Positions 15,248 through 37,418 of a DNA stretch of 37,563 bases are shown here, one piece after another; positions within the stretch are counted from its first letter, which is position 1, and every line of letters starts with the position of its first letter. The DNA comes from Oscillospiraceae bacterium. GTDB lineage: Bacteria; Bacillota; Clostridia; Saccharofermentanales; Saccharofermentanaceae. Under the pieces are notes generated by a model, which was not told where the DNA came from, did no database searches, and saw only the letters and a list, made by a program, of their open reading frames with translations. Both the position numbers and the translations under genes were made by a program. Location of the stretch: contig SVJC01000009.1 in NCBI GenBank assembly GCA_015069215.1, positions 1 to 37,563 of the forward strand. The letters are read 5' to 3'.

Positions 15248-15334
15248 AAGCTCAAGAAATTGGATTTTTATGCGTGGAAAACGCGCAGACAGTTTGATTT
15301 AGGACTTTATACACATATGAAGGAAGGTGCTTCT

Positions 15335-17257
15335 ATGATGAGAAAGTTTTACAAGAAGAAAGCAGGAAGACGCGGAGCGATCCTCGTAACCGTCGTTTTC
15401 GTACTGGCATTCGCAGTAATCTTCATTGCTGCAGCCATGATGCTTACACAGGCTACAAGAAAGCGTGTGTATACTGAGGCTGAGAGCAATCAGGCAAGAC
15501 TTACGGTTACATCCGTTGCAGAGTCTTGGTATCGTGCGGTGCAGAAGTGCGAGTTTGCTGATGAGGATCTGTTAGACCTCTGCAAGGCTAAGTCACTCAT
15601 CAGGGTTTATGCATCGGCTAACGCTGATACAGTTCCTGGCCTTGAGAATGAAGGTGTTAAAAATGATGAAAGTTACACTACAGTGTATCTTTACCGTGTA
15701 CCGAATTCGGAGGGAGCTACTAAAGCAGATGATTATACATATTATGCTGACTTTACGACTCACCTTGACGGACAGGTTGAGAACGTTCGTGCAACTTTGA
15801 GCTACACGACCCCGACCAGCGGCAAAAATGCAGCACCTTTCAGCACGCAGATCGACTTGAACAACGAGTTCAATCAGAACAACCTCGAAATAATCGGTAA
15901 GGGTAAGAATGATCTTGATAATATCTTCCTCGTCAGAAAAGGCGGTAAGAACAAGAACGCTTCTTTCTCTACCTACGCTACAATGGTATATTGTGATGGC
16001 GAAGTAGCATTCAAGGATGATGATTTCCATTGTAAAGATCTCGTTTTCCTTACTGGCGCAAAGCTGGCAAATAAGAATGACAGTACCATGTTCAAGAAGC
16101 ACACTGTTGAGAACCTGTTCTTCTTCGGTGACAGTAATGAAGCGATTTCTACAGGAACAGCCACCAACTTTAGTCCCAGCGGTCTCAACTTCTACCTCTG
16201 CGACAGATCCATAGGTGATACTTCATGGGTAAGCGGCGCAAGTGTTACTTACATCAATGCTGACGGTACTCTTAAGGGCGGCGGAAAAGCATTCGCAGAC
16301 GATGATGTTAACAATGCATTTGTTAAAAAAGTAAAAAAGTATGCATCGCTTAACACAAGCTATAAGGCTGGCGGTACAAACAGCTTCCCTACCACTGACG
16401 AATTCATTTCAGCTTCTTCAAAGCTCGGAATAACAAAGACACCTCCGAGCACTCTTACGGGCAAGAAGTTTGGTAACTTCCTTGAAAATAATTGCTACCA
16501 GAAGAATGGTGGTAAAGTTGTTCCCGGTGGCACATATCTCTTCACCTCCGATGAGTCTGATAAAGGTGAGAGCCATCCTGGTTTGGGCGACAAGGAACCT
16601 TACATCATGGTTCTCAGCGGCAGTGAGAATTACACATTCTGGTTCGATGGTACTTTCAAACTTTATAACGTAGTATTCATTATCGACAAGCCTAACCCTA
16701 AAAAGCCGGCACTCTTCCTTCTTGCTAAGAACGCAAGTGTTGAATGGCCTTCAAGCGACAACGGAAAAGTAGGCGGTAACGGAATCTTTGCCGTAAAAGG
16801 AAGGAACTTCGACAGCGCAGCAGATGCTGCTAAGTTTATCAAGGATACTTTAAGCTCCAATTTGGACGGTCCTAATAAATTTGAGGATACCGAGAGTAAG
16901 GGCTACAGCCATCGTTATGATGGTAAGAATGAGCCTTGCGCAATGGTTATCGGTATGGGCAAGAATACTTTCAAAGTATGTAAGAATGCGATTCTGGAAT
17001 CATTTGTAGGCATGTTCAATGACAACTATAACGAGTCCAACCAGTCCAAGTTCTTGTTCCAGAATAACGATCACGGCGTATTCTACGGAAGACTTATGAC
17101 AGACGGTTATTTTGATAGCGACCAAGGTTCCATCTCAATGCCTGCCTGCCCCGGCTCTTCAAATATGGATGAACCGGATCCTGCAATGAAGAAACTTGTT
17201 ACAAACTTCAAACTTAAGTCAATGGTCTACTATTACGGCATACAGAGCGCAGGTTAA
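15335..17257 (+). CDS. PilX/GspK-like type IV pilin-like surface protein (large)
   Basis: MMRKFYKKKAGRRG|AILVTVVFVLAFAVIFIAAAMMLTQATRKRVYTEAESNQARL: class-III-leader-like basic N-terminus and hydrophobic stretch without Glu5; RBS AAGGAAGG upstream of 15335. Confidence 0.6.
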   Translation: MMRKFYKKKAGRRGAILVTVVFVLAFAVIFIAAAMMLTQATRKRVYTEAESNQARLTVTSVAESWYRAVQKCEFADEDLLDLCKAKSLIRVYASANADTVPGLENEGVKNDESYTTVYLYRVPNSEGATKADDYTYYADFTTHLDGQVENVRATLSYTTPTSGKNAAPFSTQIDLNNEFNQNNLEIIGKGKNDLDNIFLVRKGGKNKNASFSTYATMVYCDGEVAFKDDDFHCKDLVFLTGAKLANKNDSTMFKKHTVENLFFFGDSNEAISTGTATNFSPSGLNFYLCDRSIGDTSWVSGASVTYINADGTLKGGGKAFADDDVNNAFVKKVKKYASLNTSYKAGGTNSFPTTDEFISASSKLGITKTPPSTLTGKKFGNFLENNCYQKNGGKVVPGGTYLFTSDESDKGESHPGLGDKEPYIMVLSGSENYTFWFDGTFKLYNVVFIIDKPNPKKPALFLLAKNASVEWPSSDNGKVGGNGIFAVKGRNFDSAADAAKFIKDTLSSNLDGPNKFEDTESKGYSHRYDGKNEPCAMVIGMGKNTFKVCKNAILESFVGMFNDNYNESNQSKFLFQNNDHGVFYGRLMTDGYFDSDQGSISMPACPGSSNMDEPDPAMKKLVTNFKLKSMVYYYGIQSAG

Positions 17258-20518: not shown

Positions 20519-22183
20519 ATGAAGAGGTTAGGAGACATTCTGGTCGAGAGCGGCTTCCTTAACGCTACTGAGCTTGCGGAGGTTCTCGGCATACAGAAAG
20601 AAACCGGAAAACGTCTGGGAGAAGTCATTGTAGAGAACGGATTGATGTCTGAATTCGACATCCTCCGCGCTGTATCCAGCCAATATGATTATCCTATTAT
20701 CGATTTGACAAGTATCGATGTTGATCCGAAAGCGACAGCGCTTTTGAATCAGAAGTTCTGCGAAGATAACGTAGTTCTTCCCATCGGTTTTGATAATGAC
20801 AATCTTGTTGTTGCCATTGATGACCCGATGAACATTACGATCGAAGACGAGTTGCAGTTCCAGACCGGTTATCAGATAACCTTAATGCTCGCAACCCACA
20901 CTTCCATTATTGATGCGATCAAAGTTAATTACGGAAAAGAGAATGCCGCAAAAGCTGCACAAGAGCTTGGTGAAGACTTCGCGAAAGACGGTGAAGAAGA
21001 GGATTCCGAGATCAGTGATGCAGTCAACAGCGCACCGGTCGTTAAGCTCGTTAACTCAATGATCGATTACGCTATACGTGCAGGCTCATCCGATATTCAT
21101 ATCGAGCCTCTCGAAGACAGAGTCCGTGTCCGTATCCGTATAGACGGTGTCATGCAGGAAGTCATGAGCAACCCTCTGACAGCAAGAGATGCTATCACTA
21201 CAAGAATCAAGATCCTCGGCGGAATGAACATCGCTGAGAAGCGTATCCCTCAGGACGGCCGTATCACAACTGAGATCAACGGCGAACCCGTGGACATGCG
21301 TGTATCCATTCTTCCTACGGTAACAGGCGAGAAGACGGTTATCCGTATCCTTGCAAAGAACGATGCCAATCTCAACAGAAAATGGCTCGGTATCAGTGAT
21401 CACAACAACGACCTTATCAATAAGATTATTAAAGTACCTCAGGGAATCTGCCTTATCTCAGGTCCTACAGGATCAGGTAAGACAACAACCCTTTATACTC
21501 TCCTTGCAGAGAAGAACACTCCTGAAGTTAACATCATCACAGTTGAGGACCCTGTAGAAATCAAGATCCCCGGTCTTAACCAGGTACAGGTTAATGCCAA
21601 GGCGGGAATGACATTCGCAAGCGGTCTTCGTTCCATTCTCCGTCAGGACCCTGACATCATCCTCGTCGGAGAAATCCGTGACGGCGAGACCGCAGAGATC
21701 GCAATGCGTGCCGCTATCACGGGACACCTTGTTTTCAGTACAATCCACACCAACGATGCTGTTTCATCCATCAACAGACTTATCGACATGGGCCTCGAGC
21801 CTTACATGGTATCCACGGCTCTTGTCGGCGTCGTTTCACAGCGTCTCGTCCGCAGAATCTGCACGAACTGCCGTGAGGCCATCACGCCTGATGAATATGA
21901 TGTTGATACACTCCGCCTTGAACCGGGTCAGAAGATCTATCACGGTAAGGGCTGCCCTGAGTGTAATGAAAAGGGATACAAAGGACGTATCGCTATCCAT
22001 GAGATCGTCGTCATGACGAAGAAGATGAAAGCCCTTCTCGAGAAGCGTGCAAGTGAAGAAGATATGCGCCAGCTCGCTGTCACGGAAGGCACTCAGATGC
22101 TGCAGGAATCTGCAAGGGCTCTTGTTCTTGAAGGTATCACCACAGTTGACGAGCTTAACAGAGTTGCTTACACGATTGACTGA
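20519..22183 (+). CDS. pilB: Type IV pilus assembly ATPase PilB (MshEN + GspE/PulE ATPase)
   Basis: MshEN motifs RLGDILVESGFLNATELAEVLGIQ and RLGEVIVENGLMSEFDILRAVSSQ; Walker A GPTGSGKTTTLYTLL; RQDPDIILVGEIRDGETAEIA; tetracysteine CTNC...CPEC. Confidence 0.96.
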   Translation: MKRLGDILVESGFLNATELAEVLGIQKETGKRLGEVIVENGLMSEFDILRAVSSQYDYPIIDLTSIDVDPKATALLNQKFCEDNVVLPIGFDNDNLVVAIDDPMNITIEDELQFQTGYQITLMLATHTSIIDAIKVNYGKENAAKAAQELGEDFAKDGEEEDSEISDAVNSAPVVKLVNSMIDYAIRAGSSDIHIEPLEDRVRVRIRIDGVMQEVMSNPLTARDAITTRIKILGGMNIAEKRIPQDGRITTEINGEPVDMRVSILPTVTGEKTVIRILAKNDANLNRKWLGISDHNNDLINKIIKVPQGICLISGPTGSGKTTTLYTLLAEKNTPEVNIITVEDPVEIKIPGLNQVQVNAKAGMTFASGLRSILRQDPDIILVGEIRDGETAEIAMRAAITGHLVFSTIHTNDAVSSINRLIDMGLEPYMVSTALVGVVSQRLVRRICTNCREAITPDEYDVDTLRLEPGQKIYHGKGCPECNEKGYKGRIAIHEIVVMTKKMKALLEKRASEEDMRQLAVTEGTQMLQESARALVLEGITTVDELNRVAYTID

Positions 22184-22200: not shown

Positions 22201-23313
22201 GTGGAAGGATTTAGTTTATCAATCGAATCGATTCTGTCAGAATCAGTAAAGATGGGAGCATCAGATACCCATATTACTGTCGGACTTCCTCCGATGATTC
22301 GAGTCGACGGTATGTTATTGCCGATGGGTGGACAGCCGTTGACAGCTGCTGACACAGAGTATCTCTGCAAGTCAATGATCGACAAGTCGAGACAGCAGTA
22401 TCTCAACGAGAGAGGAGAAATCGACTTCTCATATGTCGTTGAGGATTACAGCCGTTTCAGATGTAATGTATTCAAGCAGCGCGGAACCTATGCCCTTGCG
22501 GCAAGAACAATTACAAATGAAATCCCTACTTGTGAGCAGCTCGGTCTGCCTAACGTATTTAAGGATCTCGTATTACTCCCGAGAGGTCTTATCCTTGTCA
22601 CCGGTCCTACGGGTTCCGGTAAGTCTACGACCCTCGCGGCAATGATCGGTCACGTTAACACCTGCAAGAAGTGCCACATCCTCACACTTGAGGAACCTAT
22701 CGAGTACCTCCACATGCACGGTGAAGCTATGATCAACCAGAGAGAAGTTCACGAAGATACACTTTCATTCGCTAACGCTCTCCGTGCTGCTCTCCGTGAA
22801 GACCCGGATATCATCCTCGTCGGAGAAATGCGTGACCTTGATACTATCAGTACCGCTATCACCGCAGCAGAAACGGGCCACTTGGTTCTTTCAACACTCC
22901 ATACGTCTTCCGCTGCAGACACGGTCAACCGTATCATCGACGTTTACCCGCCGCACCAGCAGGATCAGATCAGAGTTCAGCTCTCGTCCGTTCTTTCCGC
23001 TGTTATCTGCCAGACTCTCGTTCCGAGAATCGGCGGAGGAAGATGTGCAGCATTTGAGATCATGATCACGAATGACGCTATCAAGAACAACATCCGTGAA
23101 GGAAAGACCTATCAGATCGACAGTACGATAGCTACGAGCTTGCAGCAGGGAATGTGCCCGCTCGACTTCTATCTTGCTGAGCTTGTTAAGAGAAAGATTA
23201 TCACCAGGGATACAGCTCTTGAGAGATGCCATGCCCAGGATGATCTTAAGCGTTTTATCAACAACCCCGGTTCCTCGAACAGCCCTCTGTTTGGCGATCT
23301 GGAGTATACCTGA
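22201..23313 (+). CDS. pilT: Type IV pilus retraction ATPase PilT
   Basis: GASDTHITVGLPPMIRVDG, VTGPTGSGKSTTLAAMIG, ILTLEEPIEYLH, REDPDIILVGEMRDLDTISTAITAAETGHLVLSTLHT. Confidence 0.95.
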   Translation: MEGFSLSIESILSESVKMGASDTHITVGLPPMIRVDGMLLPMGGQPLTAADTEYLCKSMIDKSRQQYLNERGEIDFSYVVEDYSRFRCNVFKQRGTYALAARTITNEIPTCEQLGLPNVFKDLVLLPRGLILVTGPTGSGKSTTLAAMIGHVNTCKKCHILTLEEPIEYLHMHGEAMINQREVHEDTLSFANALRAALREDPDIILVGEMRDLDTISTAITAAETGHLVLSTLHTSSAADTVNRIIDVYPPHQQDQIRVQLSSVLSAVICQTLVPRIGGGRCAAFEIMITNDAIKNNIREGKTYQIDSTIATSLQQGMCPLDFYLAELVKRKIITRDTALERCHAQDDLKRFINNPGSSNSPLFGDLEYT

Positions 23314-23358: not shown

Positions 23359-24567
23359 ATGCCTAATTTCAGATATCAGGTAATTGATTCTGCCGGTAAG
23401 AAGTCGGAAGGCTTAATCGAGGCTGCTACCATCGGTGAAGCAACTCGTAAACTTAAGACCGACGGTAAATACATATCATCACTTACACTCGACAGAGGAT
23501 CCGGTATTGCCAATATCAATATCGGTAGCCCGATGCTTAAGACAAAGGATCTCGTTCTTATTTCAAGACAGCTCGCATCCCTTTTGTCTGCCGGTATTAC
23601 GGTTGTCAGGGCATTGGACATGCTTTACCAGCAGCTTGACAGTAAAAAAGCCAAGAAGTGCATCGGTGAAGTTTACGAGTCAGTTCAGGGAGGACGTTCT
23701 CTCTCTGAAGCATTCAGGGAACAGAAGGGTGTTATCCCTAACATCATGATCAGTATGATCGCGGCAGGTGAAGAGTCCGGCCGTCTCGATGAAGTTATGG
23801 AGCGTCTCGCTGAGCACTTCCAGAAAGCACAGAAACTCAAGAACAAGGTTTCGTCCGCAATGGTCTATCCTAAGATCCTTGCAGGACTTACACTTGCAGT
23901 TTCCGTCGGATTGCTTACATTCCTCGTTCCTAAGATCGGCGACACTATCAAGAGCTTGGGCGGTGAACTTCCTACGCTTACAAAGTGCCTGCTTTCAATT
24001 TCAGGATCACTCGTTCATTACTGGTACATCTATATCGCAGTAGCCGCACTTTTGGTGTATGGCTTCAAGGTTTGGAAGAGCTCCGACAAGGGCGGCGAGC
24101 AGTGGTCATACCTCATGCTCAAGATGCCTGTAGTTGGTAAAGCAACCAGAATGAACGCAGCAGCAAGATTCACAAGAACGGTTTCTACACTTCTTAAGTC
24201 TGGTATCTCCGTTCTGCAGTCCGTTGAAATCACCGAGAAGTCATTGGACAATCTCATTTTGGAGAGAAAATTGGCTGAGGCCAGAGTAGAGATCAGAAAG
24301 GGTACTTCGCTTTCCAAGTCCATCAGAGGCATTACGGAGTTCCCGCCCATGATCTACGCCATGGTTTCTATCGGAGAAGAGTCAGGTACACTTGACTCCA
24401 TCCTCGATAAGGCTGCTGACTTCTTCGAAGATGAGGCAGATTCCGCAACAGCAAAAATGACAGCTGCTCTCGAGCCTATCATGATCATCATCATGGCAAT
24501 CATCGTAGGTCTCGTTGTAGGCGGTATCGCAATGCCTATCTTCACGATGGCTCAGTGGATCATGTAA
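23359..24567 (+). CDS. pilC: Type IV pilus inner-membrane platform protein PilC (GspF family)
   Basis: LVLISRQLASLLSAGITVVRALDML, GGRSLSEAF, MISMIAAGEESGRLDEVMERLAEHF, two GspF repeats. Confidence 0.95.
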   Translation: MPNFRYQVIDSAGKKSEGLIEAATIGEATRKLKTDGKYISSLTLDRGSGIANINIGSPMLKTKDLVLISRQLASLLSAGITVVRALDMLYQQLDSKKAKKCIGEVYESVQGGRSLSEAFREQKGVIPNIMISMIAAGEESGRLDEVMERLAEHFQKAQKLKNKVSSAMVYPKILAGLTLAVSVGLLTFLVPKIGDTIKSLGGELPTLTKCLLSISGSLVHYWYIYIAVAALLVYGFKVWKSSDKGGEQWSYLMLKMPVVGKATRMNAAARFTRTVSTLLKSGISVLQSVEITEKSLDNLILERKLAEARVEIRKGTSLSKSIRGITEFPPMIYAMVSIGEESGTLDSILDKAADFFEDEADSATAKMTAALEPIMIIIMAIIVGLVVGGIAMPIFTMAQWIM

Positions 24568-24598: not shown

Positions 24599-25711
24599 AT
24601 GGATTTTTCAATAGGTAGAGGCGGATCCGAATTAGTAATCGACTGCTCAAGCTCTGACCTCAAGATCGCTGTCGGAAACTATAACCCGAAGTCCGGGAAT
24701 ATTCAGATCGACACAATAGGAATCGTTCCTCTTGAGACAGATGCTATCAACGACGGTGCTATCGCAGACTCTTTCGGCATCGTAATGGCAGTTAAGCACG
24801 CCATAGCAAGACTCGGAATCAGGAATAAGAGCTGCATTCTTACAACAGAAGGCGCTTTCGTTCATACAAGAGACTTGGAGCTCCCTGTAGCAAAAGAAGA
24901 GCAGCTCAAGGATATGGTTAAGTACGAAGTTATCGGTCAGGGTACAAACCGTGACCTCTCAATCGACTATATCGTTTACGGAACAACAAAGGACGAGGAG
25001 ACAAACGCAGACAAGCTCAAGGTAAGAGCTACGGCTATTCCTACAGACACGATCAAGGATTATCGTGAATTCCTCAAGGAAATGGAACTTCAGCCGACTG
25101 CTCTCGACATGAACCCCAATGCGGTAAGAAAGCTCTTCTCGCATGGTATCATCAACGGCAATGTCAACATCACACAGTCAACATTGCTCCTCATCGAGCT
25201 CGCAAGCAGAACAACAACAGTTACGGTTCTTGATAAGGGCTTCCCGGTTCTTTCAAGAAGACTCCAGTTCGGTCACTCCAACATCCGTCAGGTTGCTGAT
25301 TCCGTTAAGAAGCTGCAGGGCACAAACCAGCAGTCCTCTCTCGCAAGACGTCTCAGCATCACTACAACTGATGCTGCAGCAAGCGTACCGATCGAGGATA
25401 TCGATGTCTGGAATGAAACAGTTGCAAATACACCGGCTCTCCAGAGTGCTGTCAACGCTTACTTCAAGAGCCTTGTTGATGCAGTTTCACGTACAGCTCA
25501 GTTCTCCATATCGAAGTATCATATCGATGCTATCAGCACATGCTTCCTTTATGGTTCCGGTGCAGGTTACAAGAAGATCGACAAGGAATTGTCACGTCAG
25601 CTCGGAACATCTGTGGAGATATTAAAGTCACTCAGTACAGTCAACGGCCCGAAGAATTTCGAACTGCATCAGTTTGTTAACTGCTGCGGCGCGTTGATCC
25701 GTAATGATTAA
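24599..25711 (+). CDS. pilM: PilM-like actin-fold pilus assembly protein
   Basis: LVIDCSSSDLKIAVG, LELPVAKEEQLKDMVKYEVIGQ, LDMNPNAVRKLF, syntenic position. Confidence 0.85.
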   Translation: MDFSIGRGGSELVIDCSSSDLKIAVGNYNPKSGNIQIDTIGIVPLETDAINDGAIADSFGIVMAVKHAIARLGIRNKSCILTTEGAFVHTRDLELPVAKEEQLKDMVKYEVIGQGTNRDLSIDYIVYGTTKDEETNADKLKVRATAIPTDTIKDYREFLKEMELQPTALDMNPNAVRKLFSHGIINGNVNITQSTLLLIELASRTTTVTVLDKGFPVLSRRLQFGHSNIRQVADSVKKLQGTNQQSSLARRLSITTTDAAASVPIEDIDVWNETVANTPALQSAVNAYFKSLVDAVSRTAQFSISKYHIDAISTCFLYGSGAGYKKIDKELSRQLGTSVEILKSLSTVNGPKNFELHQFVNCCGALIRND

Positions 25712-25727: not shown

Positions 25728-26675
25728 ATGGCTAGCGGAATTAATAAGAAACTTCTTGCTAAGAGGGACATGAACTTCTTCCGGGAGTTCACGGCCAATG
25801 CAGCAAGAGCAGCAAGGATGTTAGGCTACGCAATGTTCCTTGGTATCCTTGTAGTAGTTATCGTACTCGGATTGATCGGATTCCTGGCAGTTAGAAACTT
25901 CATGAAGCAGCAGGAAATCGATGCTATCAATGCTGAACTTGCAGGTCCCGACTATGCAGGACTCGAAGAAAAGGCTAAACAGCTTCAGGAAGAGTTAAAG
26001 CAGAAGAACAATTATTTCTACGCACTTACTTCAATGCGTACAAGTGTTGACAGAACTGCAACTGTTCCCATGGAAATTCCCGGAATTCTTGGCAAGAGCA
26101 TTCCGAGCGATTCATATGTAACTGATTATAAGATCGATGGATCAGTCATGAGCCTTAACGGTTTCTCATTCAGTTATTACAGCCCTGTTGATATGGTCAA
26201 TATTCTCCAGGCTTCAAAGGTATTTACCTCCAGGCCTAAGTTCTTGGTTGAACGTGTTGACGGTACAACGCTTGGCACGCCTTCTGAGTTCTACAACAGC
26301 AAGACCGGCGATGCTGTAATGCTCAACAACTATTATTCGTTCTCAATCGAAGGTACACTTATCAGCAAGGTCTACATCTCTATCGGACGTTTCCTGAACG
26401 GCGCTACGATCTCGAGCCTTTCCGGTGTTGAGACAACTGAGTTCGCAGCAGGTTCTGAGTACAACTTCACAGAAGGTATTGATACATTCAAGACCGGCGG
26501 TGTTACTTATAATCTCGTTAAGATCACAGTTAACGGAACCGACGTTGATGCAGAGAGCCTTGCGAAGATCAGAGCATCTCACGCTTTGAGCGGAACAGCA
26601 AAAGCTAATGCTGAGATCAACCTGTATTACGAAGTAGCAGTTGCACAGACTGCAGCTTCGCAGCCTGCAGCGTAA
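25728..26675 (+). CDS. PilN-like bitopic pilus assembly protein
   Basis: DMNFFREFTANAARAARML then single TM, coiled coil, periplasmic-type domain; position after pilM. Confidence 0.65.
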   Translation: MASGINKKLLAKRDMNFFREFTANAARAARMLGYAMFLGILVVVIVLGLIGFLAVRNFMKQQEIDAINAELAGPDYAGLEEKAKQLQEELKQKNNYFYALTSMRTSVDRTATVPMEIPGILGKSIPSDSYVTDYKIDGSVMSLNGFSFSYYSPVDMVNILQASKVFTSRPKFLVERVDGTTLGTPSEFYNSKTGDAVMLNNYYSFSIEGTLISKVYISIGRFLNGATISSLSGVETTEFAAGSEYNFTEGIDTFKTGGVTYNLVKITVNGTDVDAESLAKIRASHALSGTAKANAEINLYYEVAVAQTAASQPAA

Positions 26676-26690
26676 GGAGGTACCAAACAG

Positions 26691-27731
26691 ATGAATAATT
26701 TATCAGCTCGTGAGAAAACCGGAATATATGTTATCTCTTTGTTGATTCTTATATTGCTCGGATATATTCTCGGAATAAGAAATTTAAATAATAAGTATGA
26801 AGAACTCAACAACAGGTACAATGAGCTTGTTGCCAGAAGAGATTATCTTAATCAGCTTAAGGCAAACGTAGCGCAGACAACTGAAGAGATTCAGAGAATC
26901 AATGAAAACATATCCAAGGTTGAGCTTTCTTTCATAGACAAGCTTGAGAATGAATGCCTTATGCAGTATGTACTTAAGACATTCGAGACCAGCGGAATTC
27001 CTTATATGTCTAACATTACTACTGAAGACGTTAAGTGCCCGCAGTTCTCCTATGCAGACGGTACAACATCTCCTGATTCACTTCAGTGCACCAGAGTAAA
27101 TGTTACTTATGCATCTACAGACGGCTATATCATTCCTCAGTACAACAGAACACCCGATACGACTCGCGCTAACGAGAATCGTAAGGCTGACATCAAGACC
27201 CTGATCGGCCAGATGAAATATAAGTTAGGCGAAGCAAAGGGTTACGATGAATTCATTAAGGCTCTTGAAAAGATGTCCAAGGAAAATCCCGGATGCATCA
27301 AGGTTACAAATCTCGCTGCTACAGGTAATAATGGTTTCTTTATTCTTGAAGCATCCATCGATTTCTTTGGAACAGTTCTTACCAACCGTGTTTCAGTTGA
27401 TAACAGCAAGGATCCTTACACAGCATGGGCAGGCGATACCAACGTTGATACATCCGGCGGATTCATTGGATTCCCTTATGTTGTTACCAACGAGAAGAGC
27501 TTGTGGTATGGCTTCATTTACAAGGGATTCAGCGCTTATGAGAAGAGACCTTTCGCAGCTTACTGGGCTAATGCAGCATTTGCTACTCAGTATGATGCTA
27601 AGGGCGGCACACTTGCTAAGTTCTTTGGCTACCCGGATCCTCGCGTTCTTGAAGTCACTCAGGCTCCCAAGAAGGGTAAGGGCAAGGCTAAGGCTACGCC
27701 CACACCTACCCTGACAAAGATCACCGGATAA
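26691..27731 (+). CDS. PilO-like bitopic pilus assembly protein
   Basis: Short cytosolic N-terminus, TM (GIYVISLLILILLGYILGI), coiled coil NNKYEELNNRYNELVARRDYL; position after PilN-like; basic/Thr-Pro C-terminal tail KKGKGKAKATPTPTLTKITG. Confidence 0.65.
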   Translation: MNNLSAREKTGIYVISLLILILLGYILGIRNLNNKYEELNNRYNELVARRDYLNQLKANVAQTTEEIQRINENISKVELSFIDKLENECLMQYVLKTFETSGIPYMSNITTEDVKCPQFSYADGTTSPDSLQCTRVNVTYASTDGYIIPQYNRTPDTTRANENRKADIKTLIGQMKYKLGEAKGYDEFIKALEKMSKENPGCIKVTNLAATGNNGFFILEASIDFFGTVLTNRVSVDNSKDPYTAWAGDTNVDTSGGFIGFPYVVTNEKSLWYGFIYKGFSAYEKRPFAAYWANAAFATQYDAKGGTLAKFFGYPDPRVLEVTQAPKKGKGKAKATPTPTLTKITG

Positions 27732-27789: not shown

Positions 27790-27817
27790 TTGCATTCTTT
27801 CACAATCGTGTTATACT
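27790..27817 (+). promoter_or_regulatory. Putative sigma-A promoter for the mini-pilin gene
   Basis: TTGCAT - 16 bp - TATACT, 42 bp upstream of the ATG at 27859. Confidence 0.6.
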
Positions 27818-27858
27818 GACAGTACAAACTCAATAAACCTTACAGGAGGAAATTCAAA

Positions 27859-28059
27859 ATGAAGAAGATTCAGAAGTCAAAGAAGGGTTTCACCCTCGTA
27901 GAAATGGTCCTTGTTATCGCTATCATCGTTATCCTTGCAGCGGTTCTCGTTCTCGGTATCGGTACATACCTCAACAAGGCTAAGGCAGCATCTTCATCCA
28001 TCCAGGCTCACAACAGCTCTATCTCTATCGTAAACTCTGAGATCAACGCTGCTATGTAA
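27859..28059 (+). CDS. Mini type IV pilin (candidate major pilin), 66 aa precursor
   Basis: MKKIQKSKKG|FTLVEMVLVIAIIVILAAVLVLGIGTYLNKAKAASSSIQAHNSSISIVNSEINAAM; class III signal, Glu5, strong AGGAGG RBS. Confidence 0.88.
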   Translation: MKKIQKSKKGFTLVEMVLVIAIIVILAAVLVLGIGTYLNKAKAASSSIQAHNSSISIVNSEINAAM

Positions 28060-28090
28060 TCCTAGCGGATTGAATTGAAGCAACCAACGG

Positions 28091-28117
28091 GCGGGGAAAG
28101 CAATTTCCCCGCTTTTG
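28091..28117 (+). terminator. Rho-independent terminator/attenuator after mini-pilin gene
   Basis: GCGGGGAAA-GCAA-TTTCCCCGC followed by TTTTGATTT. Confidence 0.85.
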
Positions 28118-28157: not shown

Positions 28158-28185
28158 TTGAAAAAATACGAAAACCATATATAAT
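28158..28185 (+). promoter_or_regulatory. Putative sigma-A promoter for the second pilin gene
   Basis: TTGAAA - 16 bp - TATAAT. Confidence 0.65.
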
Positions 28186-28234: not shown

Positions 28235-28459
28235 ATGCGTAGAATATGCAAACAAAGTAGAAACATCCGTGGCTTTTCATTGGTTGAAGTGCTGCTGGTT
28301 GTCGGAATCATCGTCATTCTTGCCGGGGCCGTAGCTCTTGGTGTTAATGATGTTCTGAACCCTGCAAAGAAGGCTCAGAGCAGCGTGGCAGCCGACAAGA
28401 TCACACAGTCTAAACTCATTCATTCGAGTGAGTCAAAACTCAGAGGCTACGGTTTTTAA
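28235..28459 (+). CDS. Second mini type IV pilin-like protein, 74 aa precursor
   Basis: MRRICKQSRNIRG|FSLVEVLLVVGIIVILAGAVALGVNDVLNPAKKAQSSVAADKITQSKLIHSSESKLRGYGF; GGAGG RBS. Confidence 0.8.
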   Translation: MRRICKQSRNIRGFSLVEVLLVVGIIVILAGAVALGVNDVLNPAKKAQSSVAADKITQSKLIHSSESKLRGYGF

Positions 28460-28469
28460 GGAGGTCAAT

Positions 28470-29135
28470 ATGAAAAAATTTGCTAAGATCAAATCCAAAA
28501 AGGGATTTACCCTCCTCGAGACCCTGCTTGCAACAGCTATTCTCGTAATAATCGGATCCATGCTTATGGAAGGCTTTATAACGGCCATGGGTTATTCTTA
28601 TAACTCATCAGTATATGCAAGGTCTGCTTCATTTAACAGTCAGCTTTGTGTTAAGCAGCTTGCTAAGTGGACAATGTTAGCTGAGAATAAGAAGGGAATT
28701 AAGGCCGATGGTTCTTATGAAGAAGAAGAAGCTCCATATAAGGACGTCGGCACTTATGGATATAACCAAACCAACAATTATACACAGCCTAAAACACTTA
28801 AATTTGGCGGCGGTGTAGGTGGTTCATCACTCGGTAAGATCAGAGTTGCAGTCTATGAGCATAAAAATGTCAATGACGCATTAGGCATGGGAAATCTGAA
28901 CAGTTTCCAGGGTGAGGCTATTAAAGATAACAATGACGCTTTTGCAGATAACCGTACGATCCTCTTCTATTTCCCGACAGTAAACGGTACACCTACCAAT
29001 GATTACTTTGGTAAGACCAATCTCTACATGATGACTTATGAAGAAGATGGTACAACAAAGACTAAAAAAGTATGGGGATATGATGACGATAGCGGTAACG
29101 GCGTTTATGTAGCCGATTACGTTAAGCCGAAATGA
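28470..29135 (+). CDS. Minor type IV pilin (PilV/PilE-like N-terminus)
   Basis: MKKFAKIKSKKG|FTLLETLLATAILVIIGSMLMEGFITAM; AAGGAGG RBS upstream of 28470; ORF listed from 28428. Confidence 0.82.
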   Translation: MKKFAKIKSKKGFTLLETLLATAILVIIGSMLMEGFITAMGYSYNSSVYARSASFNSQLCVKQLAKWTMLAENKKGIKADGSYEEEEAPYKDVGTYGYNQTNNYTQPKTLKFGGGVGGSSLGKIRVAVYEHKNVNDALGMGNLNSFQGEAIKDNNDAFADNRTILFYFPTVNGTPTNDYFGKTNLYMMTYEEDGTTKTKKVWGYDDDSGNGVYVADYVKPK

Positions 29136-29169
29136 GCATTTATCAGAGTAGATTTGGAGGATGAATATT

Positions 29170-29772
29170 ATGAAACGTATACATAATTCAAAACGAGGTT
29201 TTACCCTTGTTGAGATGATGCTTGCGCTCGCGATCATCACAATTATCGGGTGGACAACCGTTGCTCTGATGATTGCTACTAAAGACTCGTTCATGACAAC
29301 ATATAATACGAACGACTCCGCAGACTATGCAGTCCTTTACTCTAATGGTTTTGAGAACTCATTCCTTGAGCATTCTCAGAATGGACACGCCGGTAAATTC
29401 GGAGTAAGAATGACTGATTCGGTACTCGAACAGAATACCGGTGTTGCGGTCTTTGAACCGAGGCAGATGAAAACTACGAATGTAAATACCGGATTGGAAG
29501 TTGACAAGTGGAAAGTCAGAATGTTCTTCAAGATTGATGCCAATGATGCTTCCAGGTTAGTTCAGTATAAGATCATCGTTGTTGACAATTATTACAGCCC
29601 TACACCGAAGGTAGTTTGCACTATGGATGGCGCTGTATGGCCGCCGCATGTTCCGAAGGAAAAGTTGACGCTGTCTAATTATAGTTCCCCTGATCAGCTT
29701 GATACTGATTTGAGATCCACATATAGTTTGGACGCATCCGTTTGGAAAAACTACGTTAGCTTATCAGCCTAA
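29170..29772 (+). CDS. Minor type IV pilin
   Basis: MKRIHNSKRG|FTLVEMMLALAIITIIGWTTVALMIAT; GGAGG 9 nt upstream of ATG at 29170. Confidence 0.82.
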   Translation: MKRIHNSKRGFTLVEMMLALAIITIIGWTTVALMIATKDSFMTTYNTNDSADYAVLYSNGFENSFLEHSQNGHAGKFGVRMTDSVLEQNTGVAVFEPRQMKTTNVNTGLEVDKWKVRMFFKIDANDASRLVQYKIIVVDNYYSPTPKVVCTMDGAVWPPHVPKEKLTLSNYSSPDQLDTDLRSTYSLDASVWKNYVSLSA

Positions 29773-29796: not shown

Positions 29797-29827
29797 CTCC
29801 GCAGGATTGCCCTGCGGAGCTTTTTTA
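29797..29827 (+). terminator. Rho-independent terminator ending pil operon
   Basis: CTCCGCAGG-ATTGC-CCTGCGGAG followed by CTTTTTTATT. Confidence 0.9.
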
Positions 29828-35129: not shown

Positions 35130-37418
35130 ATGGAAAGGTGTGCTATGAGGGCAACAATATCGGTCATATTTGCATTTCTGATAATCGCACTTCTTGTATG
35201 TGCGGTGCTTGCCCTTCGTTCGAAAAAGGCAGTCAAAGGATCGGTCGCGAATCTTCTGGTATCCCTTTCCGTCCCCGTTCTCGGAAATCTTATGCTGGTT
35301 GCCTCATCTGATCAGTTCATCGCGACGATCGGATGCTATGTATATTTCCTGGGAATGGATGCCGTGATATGCTCCATTTTCTATTTCACTCATTCTTATT
35401 GTGAGCTGGGCAGCCCGAAGCGTTCACTCCTCATAATGATCTACAGCCTCTTCGGCATCGACCTTGTCCTCTATGCTCTTAATCCGGTCTTCGGTTATTC
35501 TTTCTCGACAGAGAGGATAGTAGTTGACGGACGTGATTATTTCAGGCTCATCCCTTATTTCGGACAGGCATACCACAGGATAGTCTGCTACAGCCTTTTC
35601 TTTGCCTGCCTGATAATCTTTGTCGTAGTTACCTCGAAGACTTCAAAAGTCTATGCAGAGAAGTACATTGTCATCCTCTGCTCCCTGGTCATTACCGGCG
35701 CGATCGAGTCTTATTACATCTTCTCAGGACAGCCCCTCGACATGTCCATGATCGGATTCGGAATCTTCGGTCTGCTCGTATACTTCTTTGCACTTCGTTA
35801 CAGATCCATGAGAGTCCTGGACAGACTTCTTGCAAGTCTTGCTTCCGATCTGCCTGACGCGATCTTCTTCTTTGACCAGAGCGGTAAGTGCATATGGCTG
35901 AATGAACCCGGCAAAAAGCTAATCGGAAGTGCGAAAGACAAATACGATGATGTCAAGGAAAACCTTCTTTTCCTGTTTGACGACATAGATTTCGAAAACA
36001 GCGGATGGGAAAAACAGGTAATTGTAGGTGCCGGCGATGACGCTCAGTACCTCGAGCTTTCAATGCGTTCAGCCGTGGATGAGAACGGGATCAAGACCGG
36101 TTCATATCTTAACGTTCACGACTATACCGATGAACAGCTCGCAATGCAGAAAGAGATCTACAACTCGACGCACGATTCGGTTACCGGATTATATACCAAG
36201 GAATATCTTTTCGAGCGCATCAGCAAGAGACTTAACAACGATAAGACGACCGATTATATGGCCGGCTATATCGAAGTATCCAATTACAAGATGATCAATG
36301 ACGTTTTCGGAAGCGAATTCGGTTTGCTTACAATCAAGAGGGTTGCCCAGACGATACAGGAGAACTCAAGCGAAAAGACTTTATATGGCAGACTCGGAAA
36401 CGATTCTTTCGGTATGCTGCTCGATAAATCGCATTTTGATGTTGAAAAGCTCGAAAAACTTCTTGAGACGTTTTCTGTCGAAGATAACAACATGGAGCAT
36501 CATATTGTCATTCACTTCGGCGTTTATGATTTCAGCAAAGATGAAGACATCGACTTGCCGCTCTTCTTTGACAGCGCGCGTCTTGCCACTACCGTCATTG
36601 ACAGCAACTATCACAACAAGGTTGTCTTTTATGATGATAAGCTCAGAAGTGATGCGGTCCATGACCAGCTCATTTCCAATCAGCTTAAGGAAGCCATTGA
36701 GGCTAAGCAGGTAAGACCTTATCTTCAGCCGATCGTTGATTCACGCGGCATGCTCGCCGGTGCGGAAGCTCTTGTCAGATGGATCCATCCTGATGAAGGC
36801 TTCATGAATCCCGGACAGTTCATCCCGATCTTTGAGAGAAACGGACTGATCTCCGTCGTAGACAAGTACATGTGGAGATGCGCATGTGAGCTTTTGGCTT
36901 CATGGAAGGAAAGGGGGATCAAGAGCTTCATTTCCGTAAATGTCTCGCCCAAAGATTTCTACCGCCTTGATGTCGTATCCGAGATGAAATCTTTGGTCGA
37001 AGAGTTTGGAATCAAGCCCGAAAGACTCAGGATCGAGATCACCGAGGCCTCCATCACCACCGAGGACATCAACATGGCCAAGATAATCTCTGATCTCCGT
37101 GAATATGGCTTTATCGTTGAGATGGACGATTTCGGAAGTGGCTATTCGTCACTCAATCTGCTTAAGGACATCAACCTTGATCTTATCAAGATCGACATGC
37201 AGTTCCTTAAGGATTCAGAGCGCAACATGAAGGCCGGACTGATCATCAAGAACATCATCAACATGTCTGAGGATCTGGGGATCGATACGCTTACGGAAGG
37301 CGTTGAGACCGCCAAGCAGTTCGAAAAACTGTATGACATGGGCTGCAAGCTCTACCAGGGTTACTACTTCTCCAAGCCGGTCCCTGTTGAGGATTTTGAG
37401 AAGCAGTGGTTTGATTAA
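35130..37418 (+). CDS. Membrane GGDEF(degenerate)-EAL c-di-GMP phosphodiesterase with N-terminal 7TM-type and PAS-like regions
   Basis: Multiple N-terminal TM helices; PAS-like LPDAIFFFDQSGKCIWLNEPG; degenerate GNDSF at 36397-36411; EAL domain with AEALVRW, SVNVSPKDF, RIEITEAS, VEMDDFGSGYSSLN, LIKIDMQF, LTEGVET, YQGYYFSKP. Confidence 0.92.
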   Translation: MERCAMRATISVIFAFLIIALLVCAVLALRSKKAVKGSVANLLVSLSVPVLGNLMLVASSDQFIATIGCYVYFLGMDAVICSIFYFTHSYCELGSPKRSLLIMIYSLFGIDLVLYALNPVFGYSFSTERIVVDGRDYFRLIPYFGQAYHRIVCYSLFFACLIIFVVVTSKTSKVYAEKYIVILCSLVITGAIESYYIFSGQPLDMSMIGFGIFGLLVYFFALRYRSMRVLDRLLASLASDLPDAIFFFDQSGKCIWLNEPGKKLIGSAKDKYDDVKENLLFLFDDIDFENSGWEKQVIVGAGDDAQYLELSMRSAVDENGIKTGSYLNVHDYTDEQLAMQKEIYNSTHDSVTGLYTKEYLFERISKRLNNDKTTDYMAGYIEVSNYKMINDVFGSEFGLLTIKRVAQTIQENSSEKTLYGRLGNDSFGMLLDKSHFDVEKLEKLLETFSVEDNNMEHHIVIHFGVYDFSKDEDIDLPLFFDSARLATTVIDSNYHNKVVFYDDKLRSDAVHDQLISNQLKEAIEAKQVRPYLQPIVDSRGMLAGAEALVRWIHPDEGFMNPGQFIPIFERNGLISVVDKYMWRCACELLASWKERGIKSFISVNVSPKDFYRLDVVSEMKSLVEEFGIKPERLRIEITEASITTEDINMAKIISDLREYGFIVEMDDFGSGYSSLNLLKDINLDLIKIDMQFLKDSERNMKAGLIIKNIINMSEDLGIDTLTEGVETAKQFEKLYDMGCKLYQGYYFSKPVPVEDFEKQWFD

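Follow-up and report, generated by a model that had tools for sequence, protein, structure and literature searches.

How would a fibre built of headless single helices hold together? The question is raised by an open reading frame at positions 27,859-28,059 of a 37,563-nucleotide stretch of DNA (the window, analysed at its full length). The globular head is the variable part of a type IVa major pilin. The frame encodes a 66-amino acid prepilin, here called mini-pilin 1, whose mature form of 56 amino acids would consist of the α1 helix only and which is proposed as a major pilin. The window belongs to a 2.45-Mb draft genome (192 contigs, 92% complete), and its nearest named relatives are metagenome-assembled genomes (MAGs) of Saccharofermentans and Mageeibacillus, mostly from rumen or other herbivore gut samples. 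The genes and signals of the pilus cluster described below are all located on the forward strand.

A short prepilin gene in a type IVa pilus cluster

A first-pass annotation of the window had described a 66-amino acid frame with a class III leader, Phe1 and Glu5, and a 56-residue mature pilin in which Phe1 and Tyr27 were the sole aromatics. All of these features were confirmed on reading the sequence, and the protein passed the cut-offs of Pfam N_methyl (PF07963; 31.8 bits against 21.2) and NCBIfam TIGR02532. The cleavage site predicted from the motif is MKKIQKSKKG^FTLVEMVLVIAIIVILAAVLVLGIGTYLNKAKAASSSIQAHNSSISIVNSEINAAM, and the matches in PHROGs and NCBIfam consisted of N-terminal similarity only. 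In an alignment of 35 mini-pilin 1 sequences (A1), the class III signal peptide with Gly-1, Phe1, Glu5, and the hydrophobic N-terminal helix was invariant. The frame stops at mature residue 56, leaving no C-terminal globular head, and a search past the stop for a continuation of any frame as a head domain found none. Position 22 is occupied by Leu in the window and by Pro in none of the A1 sequences. A possible role as an aromatic-dense conductive pilin was rejected because mini-pilin 1 has only 2 aromatics per 56 residues.

Strong full-length orthologues were recovered in 103 of the 115 genomes of the family set (Saccharofermentans/Mageeibacillus-type MAGs). Every genome had some match, and the remaining 12 had weak matches only. 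In three of these 12 (G060, G070, and G005), the contig ends fall inside the gene, and the apparent damage is a gene cut by the contig end and not a pseudogene. The recurrence of short pilins beside pil genes in related genomes, which the first-pass annotation had put forward as a check, was observed in a set of 53 pil clusters (from named genomes plus the window itself): the mature length was 53-64 amino acids throughout and exactly 56 in 27 of them. Synonymous change exceeded replacement change (pN/pS 0.32 overall), with values of 0.02 for the leader and hydrophobic stretch and 0.47 for the second half. This wide conservation of the full-length gene, together with the layout of a stop followed by a terminator, excludes a chance frame or a frameshift; the sequencing frameshift near the gene end that had been considered at first pass is contradicted by the same 103 orthologues and by the lack of a head-encoding frame beyond the stop.

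The gene has a dedicated promoter at 27,790-27,817 (TTGCAT-16-TATACT, with an extended -10 TG), a site that was absent from those listed by the promoter scan. The pattern TTGCAN-16/17-TATAMT was present upstream of mini-pilin 1 in all 53 clusters, 41 of which also carry the TG. A TACAAAC box (27,823-27,829) begins 5 nt past the -10, at or near the expected transcription start; exactly this spacing was found in 52 of the 53 clusters, the surroundings usually reading TACAAACTCAATAAA or similar. When Rfam was searched for a structured RNA at this 5' box, no match was obtained, and the box could be a transcription element or an mRNA-stability element. A ribosome-binding site (AGGAGG, 27,844-27,849) is positioned nine bases upstream of the gene and is present in 53/53 clusters. 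Downstream, the scan placed an intrinsic terminator with a terminator-like hairpin at 28,089-28,114. Such a hairpin occurred 3' of mini-pilin 1 at 52 of 53 loci compared with 5 of 265 shuffles, which preserved base composition and not dinucleotides; the single locus without it was the second copy of a tandem mini-pilin pair. The own promoter, strong ribosome-binding site, and downstream terminator claimed at first pass were thus all borne out, and mini-pilin 1 is, as read from these signals, a monocistronic transcription unit.

The gene order in the window is PilB, PilT, PilC, PilM, PilN, PilO-like, mini-pilin 1, mini-pilin 2, and two larger prepilins, which links mini-pilin 1 to machinery of type IVa. 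The extension ATPase PilB (20,519-22,183) combines a T2SSE domain (5e-133) with an MshEN domain (5e-20) that contains two RLG..Q motifs. It is followed by the retraction-type ATPase PilT (22,201-23,313; T2SSE 3.3e-47 and position after PilB), the platform protein PilC (23,359-24,567; two T2SSF domains), PilM (24,599-25,711; PF11104, 2.7e-18), PilN (25,728-26,675; PF05137 over the cut-off), and the PilO-like protein (26,691-27,731), assigned mainly by position and with weak T2SSM similarity. Outside the main operon and on the same strand, a gene at 15,332-17,257 with a weak GspK match encodes a possible PilX/GspK-like large minor subunit. A similar 634-amino acid gene adjoins the pil cluster in one relative (L214), and the product presumably belongs with the pilus system. 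In other PilB/MshE proteins, RLG..Q motifs bind c-di-GMP. Downstream of the pil cluster, positions 35,130-37,418 read as a protein that seems to have both a GGDEF and an EAL region. This nearby protein and the MshEN domain in PilB suggest c-di-GMP control of pilus extension, which seems plausible from the sequence.

The first-pass annotation described only one headless pilin and overlooked a second one, mini-pilin 2, encoded at 28,235-28,459. This 74-amino acid prepilin is a proposed minor subunit. Its mature residue 61 was aromatic in all 50 sequences measured, and in 38 of them the protein ends right there; in some relatives the gene was missed by the first motif and was recovered by admitting Thr at position 4. 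A promoter at 28,158-28,185 (TTGAAA-16-TATAAT, 11 of 12 consensus positions) precedes mini-pilin 2 and the minor pilins, and a loose promoter pattern was present ahead of mini-pilin 2 at 46 of 50 related loci in an uncontrolled count. The start of mini-pilin 2 lies 122-370 nt downstream of mini-pilin 1, and the distance from mini-pilin 2 to the PilV-like gene is typically 10-20 nt; mini-pilin 2 almost abuts this gene and therefore looks co-transcribed with the minor pilins. The latter are PilV-like (28,470-29,135) and PilW-like (29,161-29,772) by position, and both have a large C-terminal domain, an N_methyl match above the cut-off, and a position kept in relatives. Past these minor pilin genes, a terminator was placed by the scan at 29,797-29,819. 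The order mini-pilin 1, mini-pilin 2, and two larger prepilins was repeated in related clusters.

Predicted helix and comparison with known pilins

AlphaFold2, supplied with 35 homologues, predicted mini-pilin 1 as one helix covering residues 13-65 (mean pLDDT 89.4). Mini-pilin 2 was also predicted as one helix, less confidently (pLDDT 75.7). Together with the conserved short length, the single-helix prediction agrees with the headless state described at first pass. Residues Y27, A34, H41, and N42 were invariant in the 35 mini-pilin 1 sequences, the first three being spaced by seven residues, and over residues 23-55 conservation and hydrophobicity both peaked near the helical angle (permutation p ~0.004). 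The annotation had further envisaged an exposed Ser/Ala/Asn-rich tail. This picture does not fit the invariant residues and the helical periodicity: given the single-helix prediction and the periodic conservation, the segment is better read as a packed helix, and the Ser/Ala/Asn-rich second half is predicted to form the helical α1-C half. The conserved helix face may replace the head contacts.

Mini-pilin 1 shares the leader, Phe1, Glu5, and a conserved α1 with canonical type IVa major pilins (KEGG K02650). The canonical α1 averages 51 amino acids (PMC11046646), and the whole of mini-pilin 1 has the size of a canonical α1. In contrast, the K02650 pilins have a mean mature length of 141 amino acids, a head domain, and a conserved Pro22, and mini-pilin 1 has neither the head nor Pro22. 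KEGG major pilins span 42-297 amino acids after leader removal; very short entries already exist among them, hence the mini-pilin is not categorically new. A type IVa machine with an α1-only major pilin would be a variant of an already known pilus type.

The nearest solved sequence is that of Geobacter PilA-N (GSU1496, 'geopilin domain 1'; PDB 2M7G, 6VK9, 7TGG, and 9EGP), whose chains matched the mini-pilin profile with E values of 2.7e-11 to 5.7e-7. Both proteins have the GFTL.E leader, a mature chain of about 60 residues that forms one helix, and assembly by type IVa machinery. Geobacter PilA-N retains Tyr27 and Asn42, as mini-pilin 1 does. The first-pass annotation had named PilA-N as the closest well-known analogue, which holds for solved sequences; the Tad/Flp pilins, treated below, are also well-known headless pilins. 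The Geobacter major pilin consists of PilA-N (61 amino acids) and PilA-C (104 amino acids) joined as a heterodimer (PMC11046646); the two genes lie side by side, and PilA expression may be lost when the neighbour gene of Geobacter PilA is deleted (PMC5174107). Since PilA-N makes up only half of a subunit with two chains, the mini-pilin could likewise have an unlinked head partner; it would then be the helix half of a split pilin whose separate, secreted PilA-C-like head is encoded elsewhere. The short helix with Tyr27 and the profile similarity to PilA-N are both present in mini-pilin 1. However, among linked genes in the 53 clusters, no β-sheet head gene of the PilA-C type was found separating or flanking the pilin genes; the pilin gene that follows downstream encodes another single-helix pilin, and the mini-pilin helix does not have Pro22. 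We regard the split arrangement as unlikely.

The PilA of Caulobacter crescentus, a Tad/Flp pilin with 45 mature residues, is a single amphipathic helix that forms the entire filament without a head, and Tad pilins depend on Glu5-Tyr6 hydrogen bonds (PMC11067988). Mini-pilin 1 is of similar size and has the same single-helix, headless architecture by prediction, and a third filament system of the host genome, a Tad-like locus on contig C147, encodes an ATPase resembling CpaF along with a protein that matches T2SSF weakly. The mini-pilin might then be a Tad/Flp pilin served by this Tad-like machinery and not by the Pil cluster. However, where Tad pilins have a Tyr after Glu5, 35/35 mini-pilin 1 sequences have Met6, and the Flp1_like profile gave 18 bits against a cut-off of 33.5. 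Instead of linked CpaF/TadA, TadB, and TadC, the neighbours are PilB, PilT, PilC, and PilMNO in the window, with pilin genes in the same order in the other clusters, while the CpaF-like gene lies on C147. Service by the Tad-like locus is therefore extremely improbable. Mini-pilin 1 is Tad-like in shape and nearest to PilA-N in sequence, and it satisfies the full definition of neither.

Mini-pilin 1 as the candidate shaft subunit

Codon adaptation indices (CAI) were calculated with weights derived from 13 ribosomal proteins of the host genome. The CAI of mini-pilin 1 was 0.782, compared with 0.68-0.78 for the ribosomal proteins (n=13), and exceeded that of all 105 background genes. CAI is noisy for a hydrophobic protein of 66 codons; the control with random synonymous versions still gave z = 5.8. 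Values were lower for mini-pilin 2 (0.376), the two large minor pilins (0.50 and 0.43), and an orphan mini-pilin copy (0.48). With window-genome weights used throughout, mini-pilin 1 had the top CAI among the four pilins in 52/53 clusters. Such ribosomal-protein-like codon usage points indirectly to abundant synthesis of the protein.

At first pass, a longer conventional pilin encoded at another genomic site had been named as a finding that would speak against a major-pilin role. One does exist: a second system on contig C160 contains a 140-amino acid Pro22 pilin (CAI 0.673), its own PilB-type ATPase, and two candidate prepilin peptidases. Apparent giant minor pilins, with prepilin N-termini on open frames of 1,264-3,441 codons, were seen in the host at L016:7640-11434, inside this second pilus system, and in relatives at G023:C10:59681, G037:C5:21375, G064:C2:266596, G060:C1:59983, and G013:C1:50767. 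The C160 pilin, or one of the large minor pilins, might form the shaft, with the mini-pilin as a minor or initiating subunit; the window copy of PilC was the only one found in the host draft genome, which is compatible with this arrangement. However, a further complete PilC is encoded at a separate locus in many relatives, and six near-complete relatives (G047, G051, G067, G097, G099, and G006; 96-99% complete) have a single PilC and keep the mini-pilin cluster. No conventional major pilin of 110-180 amino acids was found outside the two minor positions in these six drafts. Their N_methyl proteins were the mini-pilins, the two minors, orphan mini-pilins, and sometimes an orphan of 223-284 amino acids; a 153-amino acid open frame in G006 was the mini-pilin with an in-frame upstream extension. 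If the systems of these six genomes make fibres, mini-pilin 1 would be their sole plausible shaft subunit. Considering also its top CAI in nearly all clusters, a minor or initiating role for mini-pilin 1 seems very unlikely to us.

The first-pass inference of a major pilin, based on promoter and terminator, thus gains support from conservation, helix prediction, codon usage, the conservation of both transcription signals, and the six single-PilC relatives. On these genomic grounds, we consider it likely that a type IVa-type pilus with a single-helix shaft has mini-pilin 1 as its major subunit. For a truly headless shaft with no second chain, we see an even chance.

In the mechanism that we propose, a PilD-type peptidase would cut mini-pilin 1 after Gly10 and leave Phe1, as the motif indicates; candidate peptidases are encoded on C160. 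To judge from the genes present, PilB, probably c-di-GMP-gated via MshEN, would polymerise the 56-amino acid helix together with PilC and PilMNO, and PilT would retract the fibre. The headless subunits may pack along the unbroken amphipathic helix, the conserved stripe of Y27, A34, H41, N42, and I52 taking over the contacts usual for heads, and the outcome would be a thin, Tad-like filament. Operon structure and codon usage suggest that the low-expressed mini-pilin 2 and the large minor pilins may start the fibre and carry an adhesive tip. As a whole, a type IVa machine would build a filament of single helices only, lacking a head, a split partner, and a Pro22 melt alike; its continuous-helix packing and symmetry would be new for type IVa and convergent with Tad, and mini-pilin 2 would serve as a dedicated co-subunit that perhaps initiates or caps the fibre. 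We consider the arguments for and against this combined model to be evenly balanced.

Orphan copies, other lineages, and significance

Orphan second copies of the mini-pilin were observed off the pil clusters at L012:4795-4995 (G000:C118) and at L049, L050, L060, L065, L112, and L125. They have a different leader (~MKKxxKTRKG) and average codon usage; the promoter was found in 4 of 22 orphan paralogues and the TACAAAC box in 2 of 22. Two near-identical 61-amino acid prepilins (GFSLVETIMVIAIIVIILSATAF...NPFTVSATK) are encoded at L013:7166-7351 (G000:C113) and on G000:C124 (around L010:1477), and their contigs each bear an integrase and an excisionase-like gene, so that they are possibly mobile-element cargo. 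A prepilin-like frame of 51 amino acids (MKKIIKNTDSKKGFNLVELICVIAIICIIAGAILFNYIHIFRNVIDALGGI; L011:1471, G000:C142, ~8625) is shorter than the mini-pilins and has no pilus genes near it. Orphan prepilin-like proteins of 245-279 amino acids, which begin like a mini-pilin and end in low-complexity sequence, were seen at L017:6470-7309 (G000:C174) and L220:3997-4734; at both loci, the neighbour gene resembles a tRNA/polyA nucleotidyltransferase.

Beyond the family, at the levels of order, class, and phylum, nearly all other strong matches listed were pilins in open frames of at least 108 amino acids. These profile matches mostly reflect the N-terminus that pilins have in common and thus establish no more than the confinement of close headless relatives to the family, G219 and genus g260 excepted; the headless cases counted among the genomes sampled and the matches listed are a minimum. 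The exceptions are a 77-amino acid prepilin in G219 and prepilins of 68-69 amino acids in three g260 genomes, encoded between pilT and pilD at L215:2406-2639, L290:6298-6504, L291:6024-6230, and L292:1273-1482. Like the mini-pilin 1 system, these headless proteins have about 60-65 mature residues and lie in clusters of the PilB-PilT-PilD-PilC-PilM type. Unlike mini-pilin 1, all of them keep Pro22, occupy a different cluster position, and have no mini-pilin 2 nearby; their C-terminal half is heptad-like. They represent a second kind of headless type IVa pilin, probably through an independent loss of the head; within Bacillota, type IVa pilins may have become headless on more than one occasion. 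A literature search found no account of these headless pilins, the main survey of type IV pili in gut Gram-positive bacteria being outside its reach.

The helix-only pilin of Geobacter still obtains a head from a second protein, whereas the family described here appears to operate a complete type IVa machine with a helix-only pilin and no linked head partner. The mini-pilin family would thus lend itself naturally, as a minimal system, to the question of what α1 alone can achieve in assembly, retraction, resistance to force, and crossing of the Gram-positive wall, with the paired headless pilins and the independent headless cases in other lineages at hand for comparison.
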